Assembly: GCA_028823105.1 (NCBI GenBank)
Contig: JAPKCC010000008.1
Coordinates: forward strand, 1 to 55,093
Direction: 5' to 3'
DNA length: 55,093 nt
From: Phycisphaerales bacterium
GTDB taxonomy: Bacteria; Planctomycetota; Phycisphaerae; Phycisphaerales; SM1A02
Part shown: one piece after another, positions 23,056-33,910 of the stretch
How the letters are laid out: the number at the start of each line of letters is the position of its first letter
Numbering within the stretch: the stretch's first letter is position 1
Notes under the pieces: model-generated
Databases searched by the model: none
Told to the model about the DNA's origin: nothing
The model's input: only the letters and a program-made list of their open reading frames with translations
Position numbers and translations under genes: made by a program

Positions 23056-24519
23056 ATGAATGCAGAAACCCTCCGAATCCTCGACTCCATCGCCCACGAT
23101 CGAAGCATCGATCGAGAACTCCTCATTGAGGATCTCGAGCAGGCCATGGTGAGCGCTGCTCGCAAGCACTTCAACTCCCTGGATACCGAAGAGTTCGGAT
23201 GCCAGATGGATCGGCTCAGTGGCGTGATCAGGCTCTGGCGAAACGTCGAAGGCGAAGGAATCGAAGAGATCCCGCTCTCCGAGATGGGCCGAATTCCCGC
23301 ACAGACCGCGAAGCAGGTGATGATCCAGCGGTTCCGAGAGGACGAACGGAACAGTCTGCTCGACGAATTCGCAAAGCGACAGGGCGAAGTGGTCACGGGT
23401 GCTGCGCAACGATACGAGGGCGGCGCTCTCGTCGTTCAGGTCGATCGAGCCGAAGGGTTCATGCCCCGGAGTGAGCAAATTCCGGGAGAGCAGTTCCACC
23501 CTGGAGATCGCGTCCGCTGTCTGATCCTTGACGTTCGAGATGCGGGCAATCAGGTAAAGATCGTGCTGAGTCGATCACACCCGGACTTCATCCGCCGGCT
23601 CTTCGAGCAGGAGGTCCCGGAAGTCAGCGAGCGAGTGATCGAGATCAAGGCGATGGCTCGGGAAGCCGGCTTCCGCACCAAACTCGCGGTCAGCTCCATC
23701 GACTCGAAGGTCGACGCGGTCGGAGCCTGCGTGGGGGTTCGCGGCAGTCGAATCAGAAACATCGTCGACGAACTCAACGGCGAGAAGATCGACATCGTTC
23801 GCTGGAACGAATCCAGTCAGGTGCTCATCGCCAATGCGTTGAAGCCTGCGGAAGTCGAAGAGGTCAGCCTCTGCTTCGAATTGGGACGGGCCACGATCAT
23901 CGTTCGTGAGGACCAGTTGTCCCTCGCCATCGGTCGACGAGGCCAGAACGTCCGCCTCGCAGCGAGATTGACAGGTTGGGACATCGACATCCTGACGCCT
24001 GAGGAATTCGCGAAGGGCCTCGAGAACCTCGAAGCCACCGTGCGAGGCATCGAGGGAATCACGGATGTGATGCTCGATCGGATGGGCGCCTTGGGCATGA
24101 TCAGCGTCTTTGACATCGAAGAAGTCGGAGAGGGCGTCCTCGTGGAAGAGCTCGAGCTCACCGACGAATTGGCGGCGACCATCGTGGAACGGGCCGGGGT
24201 TCGGGCCCACGAGATCTCCGAGGAACAAGCAAAGGCCAAGGAAGAGGCGGCGGCCAAGGCTGACGAAGAGCAATCTGCTGACGCCATCCTTTCGGCGCCG
24301 GATGCAGATGCGGAGTCGTCCGCGGCCTCGATTCTCGGCGGAGGTCCCGCCGAGCCGGCGGCGCTGCCTTCGACGGAGTTGGAAGAGTCTTCGGGCGAAC
24401 CGACCGATGCGACCGATGCGACCGATGCGACCGATGCGGCCGCTGAAGCGTCCGCGGATGCGTTGCTCGGTGGCCCCCCGTCGTCAGAGGATGCCGGGAC
24501 GGCGAGCCAAGAGAGTTGA
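23056..24519 (+). CDS. nusA: Transcription termination/antitermination factor NusA
   Basis: A 487-residue RNA polymerase-binding factor that controls pausing, termination and antitermination. The N-terminal domain opens LRILDSIAHDRSIDRELLIEDLEQAM. S1 begins near residue 111 (GEVVTGAAQRYEGGALVV). KH1 and KH2 follow (SKVDAVGACVGVRGSRIRNIV and LSLAIGRRGQNVRLAARLTGWDIDI). A helix-hairpin-helix-like region (GIEGITDVMLDRMGALGM ...) and an acidic Ala/Glu/Asp tail close the protein. The tail holds four TDA repeats. No ribosome site lies directly before the ATG; AAGGAG is 34 bp upstream, beyond a hairpin. It is the first gene of nusA-infB-rbfA and their neighbours. Confidence 0.96.
   Translation: MNAETLRILDSIAHDRSIDRELLIEDLEQAMVSAARKHFNSLDTEEFGCQMDRLSGVIRLWRNVEGEGIEEIPLSEMGRIPAQTAKQVMIQRFREDERNSLLDEFAKRQGEVVTGAAQRYEGGALVVQVDRAEGFMPRSEQIPGEQFHPGDRVRCLILDVRDAGNQVKIVLSRSHPDFIRRLFEQEVPEVSERVIEIKAMAREAGFRTKLAVSSIDSKVDAVGACVGVRGSRIRNIVDELNGEKIDIVRWNESSQVLIANALKPAEVEEVSLCFELGRATIIVREDQLSLAIGRRGQNVRLAARLTGWDIDILTPEEFAKGLENLEATVRGIEGITDVMLDRMGALGMISVFDIEEVGEGVLVEELELTDELAATIVERAGVRAHEISEEQAKAKEEAAAKADEEQSADAILSAPDADAESSAASILGGGPAEPAALPSTELEESSGEPTDATDATDATDAAAEASADALLGGPPSSEDAGTASQES
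24402..24437. repeat. 9-bp tandem repeat inside nusA tail
   Basis: Four perfect copies of GACCGATGC, in frame, encode Thr-Asp-Ala four times in the acidic C-terminal tail of NusA. Copy number could vary between strains without breaking the frame. Confidence 0.8.
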
Positions 24520-24681: not shown

Positions 24682-27561
24682 GTGGCCAAGAAGAAGACGA
24701 TAGCCCTACGAGTGCACACGCTTGCCAAGGAACTTGGAGTGTCCAGCAAGGACATCATTGCCAAGTGCGTGGCCGAGGACATCCCTGATATCACCAACCA
24801 CATGTCGGCGATCTCGGTCGGTCTCTCGCATACGGTGCGGGAGTGGTTCGGCAACGCTGAGGGGGAGTCATCGACCGCGGTGGAAACCGCGGCCAAGGTC
24901 GACGTCGTGAAGGCGAGAGCCAAAGTGAGGAAGTCGACCAAGAAGACCACGGTCGAAGACCAGAGCGATTCGACGACCGCCGTCGCCGAGGTCGAGGTCG
25001 CCGATCTTCCGGCCACGAAAACGCCCACGATCACACCCACGTCGCCTGCGGGCATCGACGTTGACTCACCGGCACCAGTCGTCAAGTCTGATCTGCCCCG
25101 GAGCACACCGGGTACTCCCGTCGAACCGGCGCTACCGTCGATCGCCGTCATCGCCGCAGCCGCCGCCGCGACCGCAGCCGCCTCAGCTGCCGCCGCCGAA
25201 GCCGCCGCCGAAGCCGCCGAAGCCGCCGCAACTGCCGCAACTGCCGAAACTGCCGAAACCACCGCAGTTGACGGCGGCGCCAGATCGACGAAGCCGATGA
25301 TGAACGTTCCGAATCGACCGGAGAACGTCATGCCGGTAGGACCGAAGCTCGGTCAGCCGACCAAGGTGGCCTTGGCTGGCCCCAAGGTCATCCGGGTTGA
25401 GAAACCTGATGACCTTCCCGCACCTCGGCCTCGAGGTCAGCAGGGTGGTGGGATGATGTCGACTGGCGGACCCCGCCGTGGCGGCGGTGCCGGTGAGATG
25501 GAACAGCAGTCGGATGCGCGTCGCGGTGGCGGCGGAGCCGGCGGCCCTGGTGCGAAGGGCCGGAGCCCTCGGCGCAGTGGCGGCGGTGATGGACGAACTG
25601 GTCGAGCCGGCACCGGTCTCGGCGAGAAGCAACCTTTCCAGCCGTGGCGGGCTCAGGATCTGACGGAACGTGACCAGGCCCTGAAACACTCCCAGGGGTT
25701 CTTCCGACAACATCGACAGGACCGGATGCGAGGTCGAGGCGGTGGTGGAGGACGACGCGGTGCGCCGATCGCGGAGAAAACCACGGGTCCCGTGAAGATC
25801 TCGGAGCCCATCACGATCAAGGAACTTTCCGCCGTCACCGGCGTGAAGGGTGCGGAGATCGTCAAGAAGCTCTTCCTTGAGGGCATTCCGGCCACCATCA
25901 ACTCTGCGATCGACACCGAACGAGCGATCGAGATCATGATGGAGTACGAGATCGAGTTGCAGGTGGAAGAGGCGAAGACTGCCGCCGAGGTGATCGAAGA
26001 ACGCTTCAAGGCTCGTGAACGTGAAGACGAGCGGCCGCGAAGTCCGATCGTGACGATCCTCGGCCACGTCGACCACGGAAAGACGTCACTCCTTGACCGG
26101 ATCCGGAAGGCCAACGTCGCTGCTGGTGAAGCCGGCGGGATCACGCAGGCCACCAGCGCCTTTCAGGTGCCGGTGACGGCCGGGGACAAGGAACGCGTGG
26201 TCACCTTTATCGATACGCCAGGTCACGAGGCGTTCACCAACATGCGTGCCCGAGGCGCCAAGGTGACCGACGTCGTGGTGCTGGTCGTGGCGGCCGATGA
26301 CGGGATCATGCCGCAGACCGCGGAGTCGATCAGTCACGCAAAGGCGGCCGGCGTGCCTCTGGTGGTCGCGTTGAACAAGATTGACAAGGCTGAGGCCACG
26401 GATGAGAACATCCAGCGGATCTTCGGCCAACTCGCCGAACACGAATTGAATCCGACCGAATGGGGCGGTTCGACCGAAGTCGTCAAGACCAGTGCGATCG
26501 AAGGTACGGGCATCCAGGATCTGCTGGACGTTCTCGATTATCAGGCCGACTTGCTCGACCTCAAGGGTGACTTCACGGGAAATGCCGAAGGAACGGTTCT
26601 CGAAGCTCAGATCGAGGAAGGGCGAGGGCCGGTGGCCCGCATGCTTGTGCAGGAAGGCATGCTCAAGAAGGGCGACTTCATCGTCACTGGTCGCGGCTTC
26701 GGACGAGTGCGGGACATCGTCGATGATCACGGCACGCGAGTCGAGTTCGCGGGACCGTCCACGCCCATCGCGATCAGCGGAATCGACCAGTTGCCCGACG
26801 CGGGTGATCGTTTCTTCGTCGCCAGCTCGCTCAAGGAAGCCGAGTCGGCCGCCGAAGAGCGGCGTGGTCTTGAACGAGAACGAGAACTTGCGGCCCCGAA
26901 GATCACCCTCGACAACATCTTCGACCATCTCGAAGAGGGGAAGAAGAAGAATCTTCCGCTGGTGATCAAGGGCGATGTCCAGGGGTCCGTCGAAACGCTA
27001 CGTGCGGTCCTCGGGAAGATCGGATCGGACGAGGTCAAGGTATCGGTCAAGCATGCCGCCGTTGGTGGCATCAACGAAAGCGACGTCACGCTCGCCGAAG
27101 CAACCGGTGCGATCGTGCTCGGATTCAATGTGACCACCACGGCGAAGGCTCGACAACTCGCCGAGTCCAGGGGTGTCGACATTCGCCTCTACGACGTCAT
27201 CTACGACATCACCGACGACGTCGTGAAGGCGGCGTCAGGGCTGCTCGATCCGGAGCTGAAGCTCGAGGTCCTCGGGCATGCCGAGGTCAAGGAAGTCTTC
27301 AGAGTCTCCAAGATCGGTTCGGTGGCTGGTTGCTACGTCACCGACGGCGTGGTGGCGCGAAGCGCCCAGATTCGTGTCACTCGCGACGGCATCGTCGTCG
27401 AGAAGGACCGACGGCTCGATCAATTGAAGCGATTCAAGGACGATGCCAAGGAGGTCAAGAGCGGCATGGAATGTGGCATGAAGATCGATGGCTACGATGA
27501 CATCAAGGCCGGCGATGTTCTGGAGTGTTACAAGACGATCTCCGTGGCTCGGAGCCTTTGA
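24682..27561 (+). CDS. infB: Translation initiation factor IF-2
   Basis: A 959-residue GTPase that places initiator tRNA on the ribosome. The start is GTG with GAGGAGAACC upstream. The N-terminal IF2_N domain has [22 protein letters not shown] long low-complexity linker follows, first Ala-rich (about 155-195) then Gly/Arg-rich (about 255-365). The G domain has G1 GHVDHGKT at 461, G3 DTPGHE at 511, G4 NKID at 565 and TSAIEG. The C-terminal domains include [18 protein letters not shown] and end [12 protein letters not shown]. It sits between nusA and rbfA; rbfA starts 9 bp after the stop. Confidence 0.97.
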
Positions 27562-27570
27562 GGCCAGAAT

Positions 27571-28098
27571 ATGGGCAGGCGTCGATTTCAAGAGACTGAC
27601 CAGCAAGACCGAGTGCGACCCAAACAGGTCGCCTCGCTACTGTCCCGTGTTATTCAGGAACGAATCTCCCGGGGATTCGCGGATCCTCGAATTCGCGGAC
27701 TCGTCTCGGTAACGCAGGTCGACCTGTCACAGAATCTTCAGATCGTCACGTTCAGCATCTCCGTGCTTCCGGACAAGTACGGGGTTCGAGTCATCGCGGG
27801 TCTCAAGAGCGCGACGGGTTTGTTCCGGAAGACGATTCGGGACGAGACCGCTTTGCGGCGGGTACCGGACATCCGTTTCAAGTTGGATGACTCGATCAAG
27901 AGTGATGCCGCGTTGGATGCAGCGATTCGTGGAGGGGTCAACCCACTCGAATCGGATCCGAACCACACGGATGCGTCGGACGGGTCGGATCCAGATGATC
28001 CGACCAAGCGGGACGGTCCCGCGAGTGTCGACTCCCCCAGTAACGATTCCGACGACGACTCTGGTCGTCCGCCGGAAGACCACGAGGTATCTTCGTGA
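27571..28098 (+). CDS. rbfA: Ribosome-binding factor A
   Basis: A 175-residue protein that matures the 30S subunit and is needed for 16S 5'-end processing and cold adaptation. It begins with RPKQVASLLSRVIQERISRGFADPRIRG and VSVTQVDLSQNLQIVTFSISVL, the KH-type RbfA fold, and has the family segment PDIRFKLDDSIK. The C-terminal 50 residues are an acidic Asp/Ser/Pro tail beyond the usual domain. The next gene starts in a GTGA overlap at 28095, so the two are translationally coupled. Confidence 0.93.
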   Translation: MGRRRFQETDQQDRVRPKQVASLLSRVIQERISRGFADPRIRGLVSVTQVDLSQNLQIVTFSISVLPDKYGVRVIAGLKSATGLFRKTIRDETALRRVPDIRFKLDDSIKSDAALDAAIRGGVNPLESDPNHTDASDGSDPDDPTKRDGPASVDSPSNDSDDDSGRPPEDHEVSS

Positions 28099-29213
28099 AG
28101 ACCAAATGGGCGAAGCCCGCCAAACTCTCAGCACTCCTGAAGAAGCATCATCCCTCGGCAGAGAAGGGTGATCTTCCAAGCGCGTCCGCCTCGGAGGATC
28201 CGGTCACGGTCCTTCTTCACTCCTGGCTTCTCTGGGAAGCCAGCAGTGAGCAGGCAGAGACGGCCATGGCGAAGTTGATGGAGTCGCGGGTCGATGTCAA
28301 TGAGATTCGCGTCTCACTGCCCCACGAACTCGCACCTACGGTGGGGAAGCGGTATCCGCGTCTTGAAGAGCGACTCCTGGGGATTAAGAAGTCGCTCCAC
28401 TCGATCTATCTCCGACGTCATGAGATTTCGCTGAACTACGTTCGGGAAAAGGGGAAGCGTGATGCGAAGGCCGAGATCGAGAGTCTCGACGGCATCAATC
28501 CCTTCGTCTCGGCTCGGGTGCTTCGGCTTTCCTTCGGCGTACATGCCATGCCTGCGGACGAGCAGTTGTCCTTGTTGTTGCACGAACTCGGGGTGATCAA
28601 TGAACCGGTCGAGCATGAGGTCCTCGCGACTTGGCTCGCGTCCGAAGTAAAAGTCGACGACGGTCATCGTGCGATCGCGGCATTGCAGGCGGCGGTCGAT
28701 GCCGCCTGGCTCGATGGAACAATGATCAAGTTGGCTCGAAAGCGACGTCCGCCGAAGCCATTCAAGCCGGAGGTTGTGGTGGTGGAGACGGAGGAAGAAC
28801 CTTCCAAGGAAGCCGTCGAACCCGTGAAGAAACCCGCGGTGGAGAAGGCCGCGACGAAGGCTCCCGCCAAGAAGCCTGCCGTCACGAAGGCTCCCGCCAA
28901 GAAGCCTGCCGTCGCGAAGGCTCCCGCCAAGAAGCCTGCCGTCGCGAAGGCTCCCACCAAGAAGCCAGTCGCCAAGAAGGCTTCCGCAAAGAAGACGGTC
29001 GCCAAAAAGGCTTCCGCAAAGAAGACGGTCGCCAAAAAGGCTCCGACGAAGAAAGCGGTCGCCAAGAAGGTTCCCACGAAGAAGGCGGCCACCAAGAAAT
29101 CGGTCGCTAAGAAATCAACGACTGGGAAGTCCCCCGCGAAGAAGGTTGCGAAGAAGACCGCGAAACGAAAAACGTCACGACCGGTCTCGGTGGCACGGAA
29201 GAGAGTTGACTGA
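28095..29213 (+). CDS. Degenerate HhH-GPD-like protein with histone-H1-like Lys/Ala/Pro tail
   Basis: A 372-residue protein in two parts. Residues about 35-210 look like an endonuclease III/HhH-GPD fold: IESLDGINPFVSARVLRLSFGV (129-149) matches the LPGVGPKTA-type hairpin, and PADEQLSLLLHELGVI (153-168) matches the segment with the conserved Asp. The catalytic Lys of DNA glycosylases (GVGRKTA) is missing, so glycosylase or lyase activity is doubtful. From about 243 the chain is Lys/Ala/Pro-rich with ten-residue repeats (KAPAKKPAVA type), like histone H1 tails and bacterial AlgP/Hc proteins. The GTG start at 28095 overlaps the rbfA stop (GTGA). The position in the nusA-infB-rbfA cluster suggests nucleic-acid or ribosome binding; the function is unknown. 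Confidence 0.8.
   Translation: MKTKWAKPAKLSALLKKHHPSAEKGDLPSASASEDPVTVLLHSWLLWEASSEQAETAMAKLMESRVDVNEIRVSLPHELAPTVGKRYPRLEERLLGIKKSLHSIYLRRHEISLNYVREKGKRDAKAEIESLDGINPFVSARVLRLSFGVHAMPADEQLSLLLHELGVINEPVEHEVLATWLASEVKVDDGHRAIAALQAAVDAAWLDGTMIKLARKRRPPKPFKPEVVVVETEEEPSKEAVEPVKKPAVEKAATKAPAKKPAVTKAPAKKPAVAKAPAKKPAVAKAPTKKPVAKKASAKKTVAKKASAKKTVAKKAPTKKAVAKKVPTKKAATKKSVAKKSTTGKSPAKKVAKKTAKRKTSRPVSVARKRVD
28861..29100. repeat. Eight 30-bp tandem repeats coding the basic tail
   Basis: Units of exactly 30 bp start at 28861 and run in register to 29100. The first three are nearly identical (CTCCCGCCAAGAAGCCTGCC plus GTC and a variable CGAAGG end), and units five and six are identical to each other. 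Each gives ten residues (APAKKPAVTK, APAKKPAVAK, then ASAKKTVAKK forms). They resemble histone H1-like repeats and can expand or contract in frame. Confidence 0.9.
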
Positions 29214-32200
29214 TGTCACGGGCTCAGGCCGGTGACCGAATCTCGTTGAGCCGTCCTTGGCGGATCGACTACCTTGCAACCGCTGGTCTCGGGCTGGCGA
29301 TGGTCTTTTTCTCAGGCTGCGTCTCCGTCGTATCAGAGACCTCGGATGTCAGCCTCGCCGCGCCGCAAGACGGTGAGTCGTGGAATGACCAAGAACAACT
29401 GCAGAGACGCGCGGATGCCGAACTCCTCGCGACTCCCGAGGTTCGTCGCGAAGTGGTACTTCCACCCGGTCTGGCCTCGGCGGAGATCGTCGACATCCAT
29501 GTGATTCGTCCGCTCGATTTGATCGTCGCCGATCATCTCGACGAGCGTCATGCGAGCGTGACTCAAGCTGAGGAATCTGGCGGTCCTCAGAATGTCGGCG
29601 CGGTGCGAAACTATGTTCGAGGCCGATCGTTGCTGGTCTCAGGACGTCCGATCGAGGCGATTCCGTTTCTAGAGTCTGCGATCAGTTCCGGCGGTGGGAC
29701 GACGGGAATGCGGACGCTGGCCCAAGCGTTAGATGCTGCCGGTCGCGACTCCGATGCGCTGGCGATCAGGCGTCGACTCGCGGTGCTGGGAGCGGCCTCG
29801 GACGATGACCTTCGGCGACTGGTCAGGGAACTCATTCGTCGTCGTCGTTGGCAGGAGGCAATCGCGGTCTCGGCGGCACGGGTACGAAGATCGTTAGACG
29901 CTGAGGATGCTCAGTTGTCCGGGGAAGCGGCGGTTCGACTCGCCGAGTCCTTTGATGCAACGGGTGATTCTGCGTCGGCGGCGGAGATTCGGGCTTCGCT
30001 TCTCTCCGCGGCGTCGACCGACGAGGGGATGCTGGATGGACTCTCAGATGTGAGACTCGCGGAGTTTCACCTGCTGGCGGGAGATGACGCGGCAAAAACT
30101 GGCGATGCCGTCGCCGCGGACGCGCGGTGGAGGGTCGCGATGAAACTCGAGGTGATCGATCCCGCCGTGTTGCGGCCACGTCTTCTCTGGTCTTCCGCGA
30201 CGCTTGGTCGGGATGCGACCGTGCAGTGGCTTCTGCTCGAAGCCGCGACGGCTCCATCGGGTGGGGATCTGGAACTGGCGATCATCCTCCGTGAGGAGGG
30301 CCTTCCGATGCTCGACCTGTGCGAGCTTCTGGTGGCGAGACTTCGGCAGGACCCGCAGGACGTCGGGGCGGCCCGTCTGCTGGTGATGCTCGATCCGGTC
30401 CGCATGACGAGCGTTCTGAACGATGAAGGCACTCATCGGACATCACCGGAGACGCGACTCTCTTTGGTCGACGCGTCGGTGGCCGGAGGTCCTTTGACGG
30501 CCATTCTGGTGGCGGCCGGAGTTCTTGACTCGGCGGACCTTCTGGATCCGGTGATCGATCGTCTTGTCGAGGGGCCGTGGACCGATCGTGAGTTGTTGGA
30601 GACATTGGTCGGCGAGGAGATCATGAGATCCGATGTCGATACGACGCTCGTTCGAGTCGAGATCTTCAGACGTCATGATCGTTCGGATCTCGCTCGCTCT
30701 GTGCTGGACCAAGCGACGTTGGAAGAGGACAACGACCTTCGTCGGATACTGGCCATCAGACTCGCGGCTGACGAAATGGATCCCACCTCGGTGCTCGCCG
30801 TCGCGAATCATCCGTTTGATGAGTGGGTCGAAGCCGAGCGCATCGTCGGACTGCTCACCGCCGGAGAGCCCGAAATCGCGGCCGAGTTCGCCGAGCGTGC
30901 GGTCCGTCGATCGCCGATGTCGGCCGAGCTGCAGGCGGCGGTCGGTAGCTCACTGTCCCTGGTACGGGGTCGTGAACTCGACGCAGTGGAAGCCACGGCG
31001 AGGGCCATTCGTCTCGGCGATGGTCGGTGGTCGACCCGGATCGGGCTCGCGAAATTGATGCAACGAGTTCGGACCGAACTGCCTGAGGATTCGGAAGTAA
31101 ATCTCTCACGGATCGTGATCGGGGAGGATCCGGCGTTTCGGCGGCTCATCGAAGCCGATCAGGCGATGACGAACGGAGATGCCGCCACGGCGGAGCGACT
31201 TCTCGACGGAATGCTGGAGAATTCCGGGGCCAAAGATGAAGTGCTCGTGCGGATGCTGCGCATCTGGCAGTCACTCGGACAGCGTGCCAAAGGACGGCGG
31301 CGGATCGATTCACTGCTGGCTCGCCATCCGGGGGACCCGGCCCTCTTGGACGCTCGCTTCGCCCTCAGGCGAGCGACGGGAGATCGTCGCGAGCTCATCA
31401 GCGAACTCCGTGCGGTGACGGGGGAGTCGATGTCCGGACTTTCGAGTCGACGGTTGGAGTCGCTTCTAGCGGAAATGGACGTCGATCGTTTGGAATTGAT
31501 CGACTTGATCCGAGTTCGACTCGCCCGCCGCCCGAACACGCCGGCTCGGGCGATCGATGAATTGGAACTTGCACTTCTGCTTGGCGACTTCGAAGTGATC
31601 GATCAAGGCGTTCGTGGCTGTGAGGTCATCGAGGTCGCCACGTTGACGCCTCGTCTTCGTCGCCGGCTTGCGTCGGTAGCCGCAGCCGTTCCGAATCGAA
31701 GGGGTGCCGTGGTCGTTGAGCGAGTCGCCGCGTGGAGCGCGGAGAACGCCGAACCGGTGAGTGTCGACGTCGCGGCGGCGATCGTGATGACCTTGGTCTC
31801 GACCGGGGAGGCGGGATGGACCGAAGGTCTCACCCCTGCCCCGGCGTACTCCTGGTTGGATTCGGATTGGCGTTCGGTGGGTCTCTCGATATCGGAGATG
31901 AATGCGGAAGCGGGCGCAGCGTTGTTGACGTTCGCGCTTGACTCGCCCGATGCCCGGTCGCCCGCGAATGCAGGTCTGCTTCGGTCGGCGATTGCGACCG
32001 GCATCACCGCAGGCTGGTCGGCCCGCCGAATTTACGATCTGCTGGAACGGCAGGCGGCGGACGGCGTGTCTCCGACCGAGGCCTTTGGCATGGACCGGGG
32101 TGATCGCCTCGCCCTCGCGGGGGCGTCTGGTGATGCGTCGCTCTTGGGTCGTCGAATGCTTGCGATAGAACTTCTGGAAATTGCGGTCGCCGATCAGGAG

Positions 32201-32761
32201 GCTGACGCTTCGACCATGAACAACCTCGGCTTTGCGCTGCTCGAAGGCGACGACAATTCGGTGCAACGGGCGACCGATCTACTCGAGTCGGCCCATCGAC
32301 AGGAACCGGCCAGCCCGAGCGTCCTTGATTCTCTCGGTTGGCTTCGCTATCTCGAGGGCCGCCACGATCCGGAGGACGTCGACGGAGCCTTGCTCCTGAT
32401 CTCGGAGTCGATCGATCGCCGGTTGGCCGCTGGTCTTTCGGTGTCCAGCGAGGTGCTTCTGCATTTTGCGGATGCGGCGTGGCGAGCCGGTCGAAAATCC
32501 GATGCAGTCAACGCCTGGAGCGGAATCACGGGACAGGCGCTGACCATGGGTGATCTGACCGGACGCTTCGCCGCCTACGCCGACTACCAGACGGAGATCT
32601 GGGGCCGGGTGTTCATTCTTCCTGAGGTGATGCACGAGCGCATTGATGGACGATGGATTCAGGAAGCGGAACTCAGGTTGCGTGCCATTGCGGAGGATCG
32701 ACTGCCGCCTGTCACGCCGACCTTCTCGGAGCGAGAGAACGTGCAGAACTCCACCGAATAA
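29213..32761 (+). CDS. Large TPR lipoprotein
   Basis: A 1182-residue protein, not recognised as a named family. The start ATG at 29213 overlaps the previous stop by one base (TGATG). A signal with lipobox FSGC (Cys near residue 36) implies lipid anchoring. The rest is almost wholly alpha-helical with tetratricopeptide-like repeats; the clearest are near the start of the mature protein (AVRNYVRGRSLLVSGRPIEAIPFLESAI) and the end (TMNNLGFALLEGDDN, LDSLGWLRYLEGRHD). Such proteins usually scaffold complexes, for example envelope assembly. It closes the nusA-infB-rbfA-HhH transcript. An odd place for a lipoprotein, so the link may be co-expression only. Confidence 0.8.
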   Translation: MSRAQAGDRISLSRPWRIDYLATAGLGLAMVFFSGCVSVVSETSDVSLAAPQDGESWNDQEQLQRRADAELLATPEVRREVVLPPGLASAEIVDIHVIRPLDLIVADHLDERHASVTQAEESGGPQNVGAVRNYVRGRSLLVSGRPIEAIPFLESAISSGGGTTGMRTLAQALDAAGRDSDALAIRRRLAVLGAASDDDLRRLVRELIRRRRWQEAIAVSAARVRRSLDAEDAQLSGEAAVRLAESFDATGDSASAAEIRASLLSAASTDEGMLDGLSDVRLAEFHLLAGDDAAKTGDAVAADARWRVAMKLEVIDPAVLRPRLLWSSATLGRDATVQWLLLEAATAPSGGDLELAIILREEGLPMLDLCELLVARLRQDPQDVGAARLLVMLDPVRMTSVLNDEGTHRTSPETRLSLVDASVAGGPLTAILVAAGVLDSADLLDPVIDRLVEGPWTDRELLETLVGEEIMRSDVDTTLVRVEIFRRHDRSDLARSVLDQATLEEDNDLRRILAIRLAADEMDPTSVLAVANHPFDEWVEAERIVGLLTAGEPEIAAEFAERAVRRSPMSAELQAAVGSSLSLVRGRELDAVEATARAIRLGDGRWSTRIGLAKLMQRVRTELPEDSEVNLSRIVIGEDPAFRRLIEADQAMTNGDAATAERLLDGMLENSGAKDEVLVRMLRIWQSLGQRAKGRRRIDSLLARHPGDPALLDARFALRRATGDRRELISELRAVTGESMSGLSSRRLESLLAEMDVDRLELIDLIRVRLARRPNTPARAIDELELALLLGDFEVIDQGVRGCEVIEVATLTPRLRRRLASVAAAVPNRRGAVVVERVAAWSAENAEPVSVDVAAAIVMTLVSTGEAGWTEGLTPAPAYSWLDSDWRSVGLSISEMNAEAGAALLTFALDSPDARSPANAGLLRSAIATGITAGWSARRIYDLLERQAADGVSPTEAFGMDRGDRLALAGASGDASLLGRRMLAIELLEIAVADQEADASTMNNLGFALLEGDDNSVQRATDLLESAHRQEPASPSVLDSLGWLRYLEGRHDPEDVDGALLLISESIDRRLAAGLSVSSEVLLHFADAAWRAGRKSDAVNAWSGITGQALTMGDLTGRFAAYADYQTEIWGRVFILPEVMHERIDGRWIQEAELRLRAIAEDRLPPVTPTFSERENVQNSTE

Positions 32762-32794: not shown

Positions 32795-32834
32795 GGTGAT
32801 CAACGACTCGACAGAGAACTACGAGGGCATCAAG

Positions 32835-33572
32835 ATGGCCGGTCACAGCAAATGGGCCAATATCAAGCACCGGAAGGCCCGGGTCGATTCGAAGCGAAGT
32901 AAGCAGTGGAGCATCTGTAGCCGCGCCCTGACCGTGGCCGCCAGAGCTGGCGGGGGTGACCCCAAGTTCAACACCACGCTTCGCTACGCGATCGACGATG
33001 CCAAGTCGGCGAACATGCCGAAGGACACGATCGAGAAGGCGATCAAGAAGGGGACCGGTGAGAGCGAAGGGGAGACCTACGAGCCTGCCAGATACGAGGG
33101 ATATGGTCCCGGCGGAATCGCGATCATCGCGGACTGTCTGCAGTGCAACTCCAACAAGACCGCGCCAGAGATCCGCACCATCTTCGCGAAGGGCGGGGGA
33201 AATCTCGGCACCCCCAACTCCGTTGCATTCGGATTCACGCACGAGGGCGTCATTCTCATCGACGCGACCAAGGTGGACGAGGATTCGGTGATCGAAGTCT
33301 CCCTCGAAGCCGGGGCCAAAGATGTCGAGACCGAGGACGGGCTTACCTCTATCACCACCGAACCGTCGGACTTTCTCGAAGTCAAGGATGCGCTGGTGAC
33401 GGCCGGGTTCGAACTGGAACACGCGGAACTCACCTTCAGGCCCGAGACCACCGTCGCACTGACGGTCGAGAAAGCGCGGAGCTTCCTCCGGATGATCGAC
33501 GGGCTCGAGGATCAGGAGGACGTCCAGAAGATCTATCACAACGCTGAGATCCCGGACGAGGCCTACGAGTGA
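32835..33572 (+). CDS. YebC/PmpR-family protein
   Basis: A 245-residue protein. MAGHSKWANIKHRK at the start and MPKDTIEKAIKKGTGE, YGPGGIAIIADCLQCNSNKTAPEIRTIFAKGGGNLG are the family signature. Members were described as transcriptional regulators and more recently linked to ribosomes and translation of hard sequences; the role here is not shown. I chose ATG at 32835 because MAGHSKW is the conserved start; it has GAGGG upstream, and a GTG at 32796 opens the frame earlier. The acylphosphatase gene overlaps its stop as GTGA. Confidence 0.93.
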   Translation: MAGHSKWANIKHRKARVDSKRSKQWSICSRALTVAARAGGGDPKFNTTLRYAIDDAKSANMPKDTIEKAIKKGTGESEGETYEPARYEGYGPGGIAIIADCLQCNSNKTAPEIRTIFAKGGGNLGTPNSVAFGFTHEGVILIDATKVDEDSVIEVSLEAGAKDVETEDGLTSITTEPSDFLEVKDALVTAGFELEHAELTFRPETTVALTVEKARSFLRMIDGLEDQEDVQKIYHNAEIPDEAYE

Positions 33573-33910
33573 ACCAGCGTCCGGGCGGCGTCGGTGACGG
33601 CCTGCGACGGGAGTGGGTGGAGTTCTCGGGACGAGTTCAGGGCGTCGGATTCCGAGCATTCGTGGTGGGAGTCGCGTCGACCCGGCCGGTGGCCGGGTGG
33701 ATTCGAAACGAGCCTCGAGGAACGGTCTTGATGCTGCTGGAGGCCGCTGCGAGCGACTTCGATGCCTTTGTCGAGGCAATCGCCTTGGAGCGAGGCGCTG
33801 AGATCAGCAGAATCGATCGGAGAGAGGTCGAGCCGACGGATGTCGAAAAAGGCCCTTCCGAGCCCCTCACGGGGTTCTGCATCAAGTTCGACCGCCTTCC
33901 GGGCCGATGA
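33569..33910 (+). CDS. acyP: Acylphosphatase
   Basis: A 113-residue enzyme that hydrolyses acyl phosphates. The active-site motif VEFSGRVQGVGFRAFVVGVA carries the conserved Arg, and VAGWIRNEPRGTV carries the conserved Asn. The length is slightly over the usual 90-100, with a Gly/Arg-rich start. The start is GTG at 33569, overlapping the yebC stop as GTGA, so it is translationally coupled to it. Confidence 0.9.
   Translation: MNQRPGGVGDGLRREWVEFSGRVQGVGFRAFVVGVASTRPVAGWIRNEPRGTVLMLLEAAASDFDAFVEAIALERGAEISRIDRREVEPTDVEKGPSEPLTGFCIKFDRLPGR

Follow-up and report, generated by a model that had tools for sequence, protein, structure and literature searches.

The gene directly following rbfA in the stretch of DNA analysed here (the window, 55,093 nucleotides) encodes a protein with a predicted endonuclease III (EndoIII)-like domain and a long basic tail which, as judged by sequence comparison, forms a new branch within a known superfamily, unusual for its tail and its surroundings, and lies outside the Nth and DR2438 equivalogs by their cut-offs. 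The reading that we favour, tentatively and at slightly less than an even chance, is that a former glycosylase fold has been reused as a non-catalytic, nucleic acid-binding accessory of ribosome maturation or early translation. The place of the gene in its operon, the constraint on its domain, the decay of the glycosylase site, an invariant motif and a recurrent basic tail together point to a non-catalytic accessory of the RbfA/IF2/NusA group. If this is correct, planctomycetes would have a lineage-specific factor within a highly conserved bacterial gene cluster; the family also provides an example, open to experiment, of a repair enzyme's fold whose active site is lost piecemeal while a second surface stays invariant.

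The open reading frame (28095-29213, plus strand) has a GTG start and encodes 372 residues. It lies in the order nusA, infB, rbfA, EndoIII-like gene, TPR gene, yebC, all on the plus strand. The upstream gene of the cluster is nusA (23056-24519; Pfam KH_5, NusA_N and S1), followed by a frame that, from its translation, we take to be infB, encoding IF2 (24682-27561; its end 91-96% identical within the genus), and by rbfA (27571-28098; Pfam RBFA, 5.4e-20), the product of which has an acidic C-terminal extension. The EndoIII-like gene starts inside the rbfA stop, in a 4-bp overlap (GTGA, 28095-28098), and shares 1 bp at its own stop (TGATG, 29213) with the start of a gene for a large TPR protein of 1182 residues (29213-32761; Pfam TPR_19), the N terminus of which is, by eye, lipobox-like. 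The frame and both overlaps described in a first-pass annotation of this DNA can be read directly in the sequence, and its naming of the RbfA and TPR neighbours is borne out by the Pfam matches, as is that of NusA. Downstream is what, again from its translation, is presumably yebC (32796-33572), in the last four bases of which (33569-33572) there begins a further frame (33569-33910), which we take to encode an acylphosphatase-like protein; the chain of coupled genes may continue past yebC.

Residues 1-216 (28095-28742) are predicted to form a divergent, two-domain, all-helical EndoIII fold, as assigned by AF2 modelling, Foldseek and VIA-align; the AF2 model, made from an alignment with 15 relatives, has a pLDDT of 86.8 (residues 1-222) and a pTM of 0.85. 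The best match in the PDB is DrEndoIII-3 of Deinococcus radiodurans (4uob; Z 17.4 over 204 residues, rmsd 3.4), with further matches to ROS1 (Z 15.8), MutY (15.1), MagIII (15.0) and EndoIII (1orp; 14.9). A 34-row family profile matches DrEndoIII-1 (DR2438) of the same organism best (8a5f; E 9.3e-12, positions 6-171), and then DrEndoIII-3, the glycosylase domain of plant ROS1 (E 1.2e-5, positions 56-165), OGG and EndoIII, so that DrEndoIII-1 and DrEndoIII-3 are the nearest solved relatives by profile and by fold, respectively. One divergent member from outside the class, L159, which keeps the Fe-S cysteine motif, matches DrEndoIII-1 entries by itself (best E 3.5e-9) and the nth model at 2.8e-9. 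By contrast, the HhH-GPD model of Pfam is absent among the 22 families listed at E <=1 for 34 members, and the best Pfam E for the domain and 34 relatives is 0.012, the listed matches having the look of chance; apart from HC2 on the tail, the window protein reaches no Pfam or NCBIfam model with a displayed cut-off. In an AF2 run on the full-length protein, mean confidence was 54 and nothing was structured beyond residue 216; the poorer domain in that run is probably due to a shallower alignment. Profile, predicted fold, tree and the members that carry the Fe-S motif agree on homology to the HhH-GPD/EndoIII superfamily, as the first-pass annotation had proposed, and the comparison of structures that it suggested returned an EndoIII-type fold. 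Its placing of a helix-hairpin-helix at residues 129-168 holds as homology, this segment aligning with the hairpin of DrEndoIII-1, although the hairpin itself is without the second glycine (Asn135).

A search with just the domain gives a match in 40 of 41 genomes (the own genome and its nearest relatives), the one miss being a genome 68% complete, and the profile, at E 0.001 or better, does so in 196 of the 198 genomes sampled from the class. Across the phylum the figure at E 0.001 is 177/195, where weak matches may be Nth, with a best E below 1e-10 in 140/195 (a hand count). A degenerate-pattern scan of GTDB r220 contigs, using narrow patterns, returned 15 relatives, all with planctomycete titles. 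No match to the window domain was found in the plasmids searched; an Fe-S-motif-bearing member matched 44 plasmid records, of which the 15 listed are endonuclease III, DNA lyase, HesB or unannotated. A relative 35% identical to the window domain (L091) lies on a contig titled as a Candidatus Kuenenia stuttgartiensis MAG and may be misbinned.

In a quick tree of 85 rows, with several long branches, a branch with SH-aLRT 99 separates 59 family rows from the planctomycete Nth, MutY and DR2438-like rows. The class and the order form groups within the family (SH-aLRT 95 and 96), as expected for vertical descent. By this evidence the family appears to be an orthologous, vertically inherited planctomycete one, with the Nth, MutY and DR2438-like paralogues falling outside its clade. 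That the gene is an ordinary nth or mutY is ruled out by the tree, by the motifs and by the presence of both genes elsewhere in the genome: the own-genome Nth and MutY-like protein share the fold family and are products of separate genes, and the two matches to TIGR01083 (cut-off 211.7 bits) are other genes, C15 (above the cut-off) and C123. Membership of the DR2438 equivalog (NF053634, cut-off 400 bits) can also be rejected, the window protein scoring only 11.8 bits (E 0.13); none of 98 phylum genomes has a match above that cut-off. A DR2438-like paralogue, L165, keeps GVGPKTA and VDTH. Among the matches listed in a literature search, with subscription papers mostly outside its scope, no title or abstract start describes this protein.

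Residues of the glycosylase site were counted over 124 unique family rows, i.e. 63 from the order (including L084, L085, L089, L090, L092 and L093, for which the order is assumed from similarity or title), 15 from the rest of the class and 46 from outside it, among them the doubtfully binned L091; L165 (the same gene as L187), L185 and L186 were left out. The position of the catalytic lysine is taken by Phe137 in the window protein, confirming the reported lack of the glycosylase Lys, and by Phe or Tyr in 77 of 78 class rows (62/63 in the order), the remaining class row having Cys and none Lys; outside the class residues are mixed, with Lys in 1/43. Phe137 lies in a degenerate hairpin (residues 129-141, 28479-28517) reading LDGINPF, in which the Gly-h-Gly of the HhH is lost; the second Gly of that pattern is present in 0/63 rows of the order, 1/15 of the rest of the class and 2/43 outside. 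The window protein is without any Cys, and the Fe-S cysteine motif (C-x6-C-x2-C-x4-6-C) is found in 10 of the 124 rows, none of them in the class (L145, L152, L154, L159, L161, L163, L169, L067, L068 and L072). The hairpins of these ten are without the GVGxKTA form, and they would be apparent intermediates of decay. With some members having the Fe-S motif without the Lys, and others with or without the Asp, the parts of the active site seem to have been lost separately, and glycosylase activity may have been lost with them.

The exception is Asp155 (28557-28559), at the HhH-GPD catalytic Asp position and aligned to VDTH of DrEndoIII-1, which is present in 62 of the 63 order rows, the window protein included, and ranks fifth of 204 columns by conservation in the order. 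Such retention, as in an active site, weakens the accessory reading. An aromatic residue is also found at the Lys position of MutY, four MutY fragments of these genomes reading LPGVGRYTA, so that Phe or Tyr there is compatible with a monofunctional enzyme and activity of the window protein may persist. The most serious alternative, which we nonetheless regard as unlikely, is that in the Phycisphaerales the protein is an active monofunctional DNA (or RNA or nucleotide) glycosylase, with Asp155 activating attack, Phe/Tyr in the place of Lys (as in MutY) and a basic tail that makes it processive on DNA; the activity would have been lost in other planctomycetes. Repair would then be coupled to translation genes. 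In its favour, too, 32 of 34 members match the DR2438 model weakly, with E no higher than 1 and 9.6e-11 at best, although the window protein itself reaches only the E of 0.13 given above. The loss of the second Gly of the hairpin, the absence of the Fe-S cysteines and the nth and mutY already present in the genome all count against it. The domain is, moreover, slightly acidic (net charge -2 for residues 1-205 of the window protein; mean -3.2 over 72 family rows), compared with +9.0 for Nth (n=5), though MutY fragments are at -3.0 (n=4); binding of the DNA backbone by the domain, which had been assumed, is made doubtful by this charge, which is unlike that of Nth though like that of MutY.

Beyond the order, Asp155 is much less regular, present in 4 of the 15 other class rows and in 22 of 43 rows from outside the class, and its replacement within the class, mostly by S/T/N with the operon place unchanged, also counts against an active glycosylase; the Asp is missing in L171-L173, L177 and L056, which lie directly behind rbfA. 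Among the 33 rows without Asp, 26 have S, T, N or G, the highest such share of 174 columns, the rows being related and not independent. Residue 155 directly precedes helix 156-164 in the AF2 model, and a helix-capping role would, we infer, explain both the conservation and the replacements better than catalysis does. A precedent for an EndoIII fold that binds DNA without detectable EndoIII activity comes from DrEndoIII-3, at least in the available text of the reports (PMC9268735, PMC10523315), where both DrEndoIII-1 and DrEndoIII-3 keep the Lys, the Asp and the [4Fe-4S] cluster. Of these three features the window protein retains the Asp alone, and it differs from both enzymes further in its basic tail and its location in the infB-rbfA cluster.

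What is conserved throughout the family lies elsewhere in the domain. The most conserved columns over the 124 rows are Arg72 (124), Asn69 (123), Leu101, Asp67 (119) and Val73, all but one of which belong to the motif DxN[ED]xR[VI], reading DVNEIRV in the window protein (residues 67-73, 28293-28313) and sitting on a short helix in the AF2 model. A relative with intact glycosylase motifs, L185, reads DWDAVR, sharing the D and R of the motif, and conservation may thus be partly structural. Plant ROS1, an active 5-methylcytosine glycosylase/lyase, carries, we believe, a DWE-x-VR stretch like DxNExR. The motif may be an elaboration of an older structural feature, with Asn69 apparently the clearest mark of the family.

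The tail (residues 217-372, 28743-29210) is rich in Lys, Ala and Pro, is without predicted secondary structure and, counted over residues 206-372, has a net charge of about +45. It is built in part from degenerate tandem repeats of 30 bp (15 bp) at 28847-29098, for which TRF gives 5.7 copies of the 30-bp unit (90%) at 28854-29024 and weaker periods as far as 29098. The first-pass annotation derived about 130 Lys/Ala/Pro-rich residues from eight such repeats; the number of units, about 8.4 over 252 bp, agrees well, but they cover only 84 residues of the 156-residue tail, the basic stretch being longer, with the last 40 or so residues Lys-rich yet not tandem. Tails of different lengths occur within the genus (119-172 residues past residue 200 in six complete proteins, the window protein included), as expected for repeat slippage.

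The histone H1-like character ascribed to the tail is upheld by a match to HC2 (PF07382) at residues 245-369, at 43.6 bits with a gathering score of 40 bits, a low-complexity match that is confined to the tail and outscores the genome's one other HC2-like match; the window protein falls below the cut-offs of the NCBIfam Hc2 and Burk-type H1 models. Lys-rich tails are not a genome-wide habit: in a 337-kb sample (20 contig starts and the window) of the 3.35-Mb genome, only this one of 272 ORFs has at least 15 Lys in 60 residues, a run beyond what chance would give. In a genome of the same genus (G005), six HC2-like matches were seen, five of them on contigs other than that of this gene (C48, C64, C73, C102 and C125). 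Basic tails recur through the family. After an overlap filter, 36 family ORFs at 60 loci were left, of which 18 have at least 10 Lys in 40 residues near the C terminus; the same is true of 1 of the 542 other ORFs there. A similar test on complete family ORFs gave 30/74 in the class group and 27/46 outside the class, L091 being placed here in the class group and the class row L061/L171 outside it. Further members have short basic ends, and eight (L033-L040) have at most 7 residues beyond the domain. The pairing of domain and tail had been thought undescribed; no characterised close relative turned up, though with basic tails recurring in the family this gene is not alone in having it. Many eukaryotic DNA glycosylases are known to have unstructured tails (PMC9266487, in the text available).

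A Lys-rich repeat tail is shared with the H1-like proteins AlgP and Hc2, and it could be imagined that the tail does the work, as in those proteins, in a nucleoid- or polyphosphate-associated role to which the EndoIII domain only adds affinity, the place beside rbfA then reflecting growth-rate control of expression. The strength and charge of the HC2-like tail accord with this, as does its variable length, in that the repeat number of chlamydial Hc2 also varies (PMC2848022, in the text available). The likeness is compositional, however, the abstract on AlgP mentions no EndoIII-like domain, and the tail is almost missing in L033-L040. The domain is also the more constrained part, with dN/dS of 0.08-0.12 in five within-genus pairs versus 0.22-0.31 for the tail, and we hold such a role to be improbable.

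Within the genus, the domain is under strong constraint, the corresponding dN/dS values being 0.12-0.24 for rbfA, 0.03-0.07 for the end of infB and, at the start of the TPR gene, 0.25-0.43. The link to core translation genes, proposed from the window alone, proved to be conserved in the class: in a survey of 60 loci with longer flanks (28 from the class and 32 from outside, the latter reduced to 31 by setting L165 aside), all 28 class loci have RbfA immediately upstream on the same strand, preceded by InfB, and 21 of them have YebC downstream, again on that strand. Outside the class the link is looser, which weakens the accessory reading: RbfA is adjacent at 7/31 loci and about 2.4 kb upstream at 2/31, and YebC follows within 3 kb, on the same strand, at 16/31, including 4 of those 7 and both of those 2. 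Neither was found at 12/31, an upper bound given the short flanks at L149, L160 and L169. Loci L139-L144 and L148 (families f30, f63 and f70, outside the class) also adjoin infB/rbfA. An ATGA or GTGA overlap with a preceding frame at least 80 codons long is present in 57 of 78 class-group rows and in 1 of 46 others, L091 and L061/L171 being assigned as in the test of complete ORFs. Such tight, overlapping placement would suit autoregulation, with the protein acting back on expression by binding the mRNA or DNA of nusA-infB-rbfA, but this is very improbable, given the 12 loci outside the class at which neither RbfA nor YebC turned up near the gene.

Under the preferred reading, in which the protein assists ribosome maturation or early translation without catalysis, an ancestor related to the [4Fe-4S] EndoIII-type glycosylases would have been inherited vertically in planctomycetes, retaining its scaffold while the glycosylase machinery was lost (the Lys, the Gly-h-Gly and, among class members, the motif for the cluster), presumably with its activity. 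The DxN[ED]xR[VI] helix would be a new working surface, in contact with RNA or with one of the proteins NusA, IF2 and RbfA (or YebC), the disordered basic tail would keep the protein on rRNA, mRNA or DNA through charge, and overlapping start and stop codons would allow production jointly with RbfA. RNA as the target, and a role in ribosome maturation, are suggested by gene neighbourhood, itself weak evidence of function. In work on other bacteria, as far as the text available goes, YebC contacts 23S rRNA and aids the translation of proline-rich stretches (PMC12234827), and in the planctomycete Rhodopirellula baltica rbfA is up-regulated in cold shock (PMC2754498). In a fuller form, which we consider possible rather than probable, the protein was exapted into the ribosome-maturation and translation machinery of much of the phylum, an Fe-S ancestor having joined infB-rbfA-yebC, lost the Lys, the cluster and often the Asp, evolved the DxN[ED]xR[VI] patch and repeatedly grown Lys tails that grip rRNA. 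The nearly tailless L033-L040 weaken the accessory reading, as does a comparison of charges with RbfA. The C-terminal extension of RbfA (residues 118-175, 27922-28098) has a net charge of -12 in the window and is negative at 37 of 37 loci; electrostatic pairing of the basic tail with it was considered and set aside as no more than an idea, the two charges not covarying (rho 0.01, p 0.96, n=37). The end of NusA (residues 380-487, 24193-24516) is likewise acidic, with a net charge of -22, and contains repeats (DATDATDATDA).
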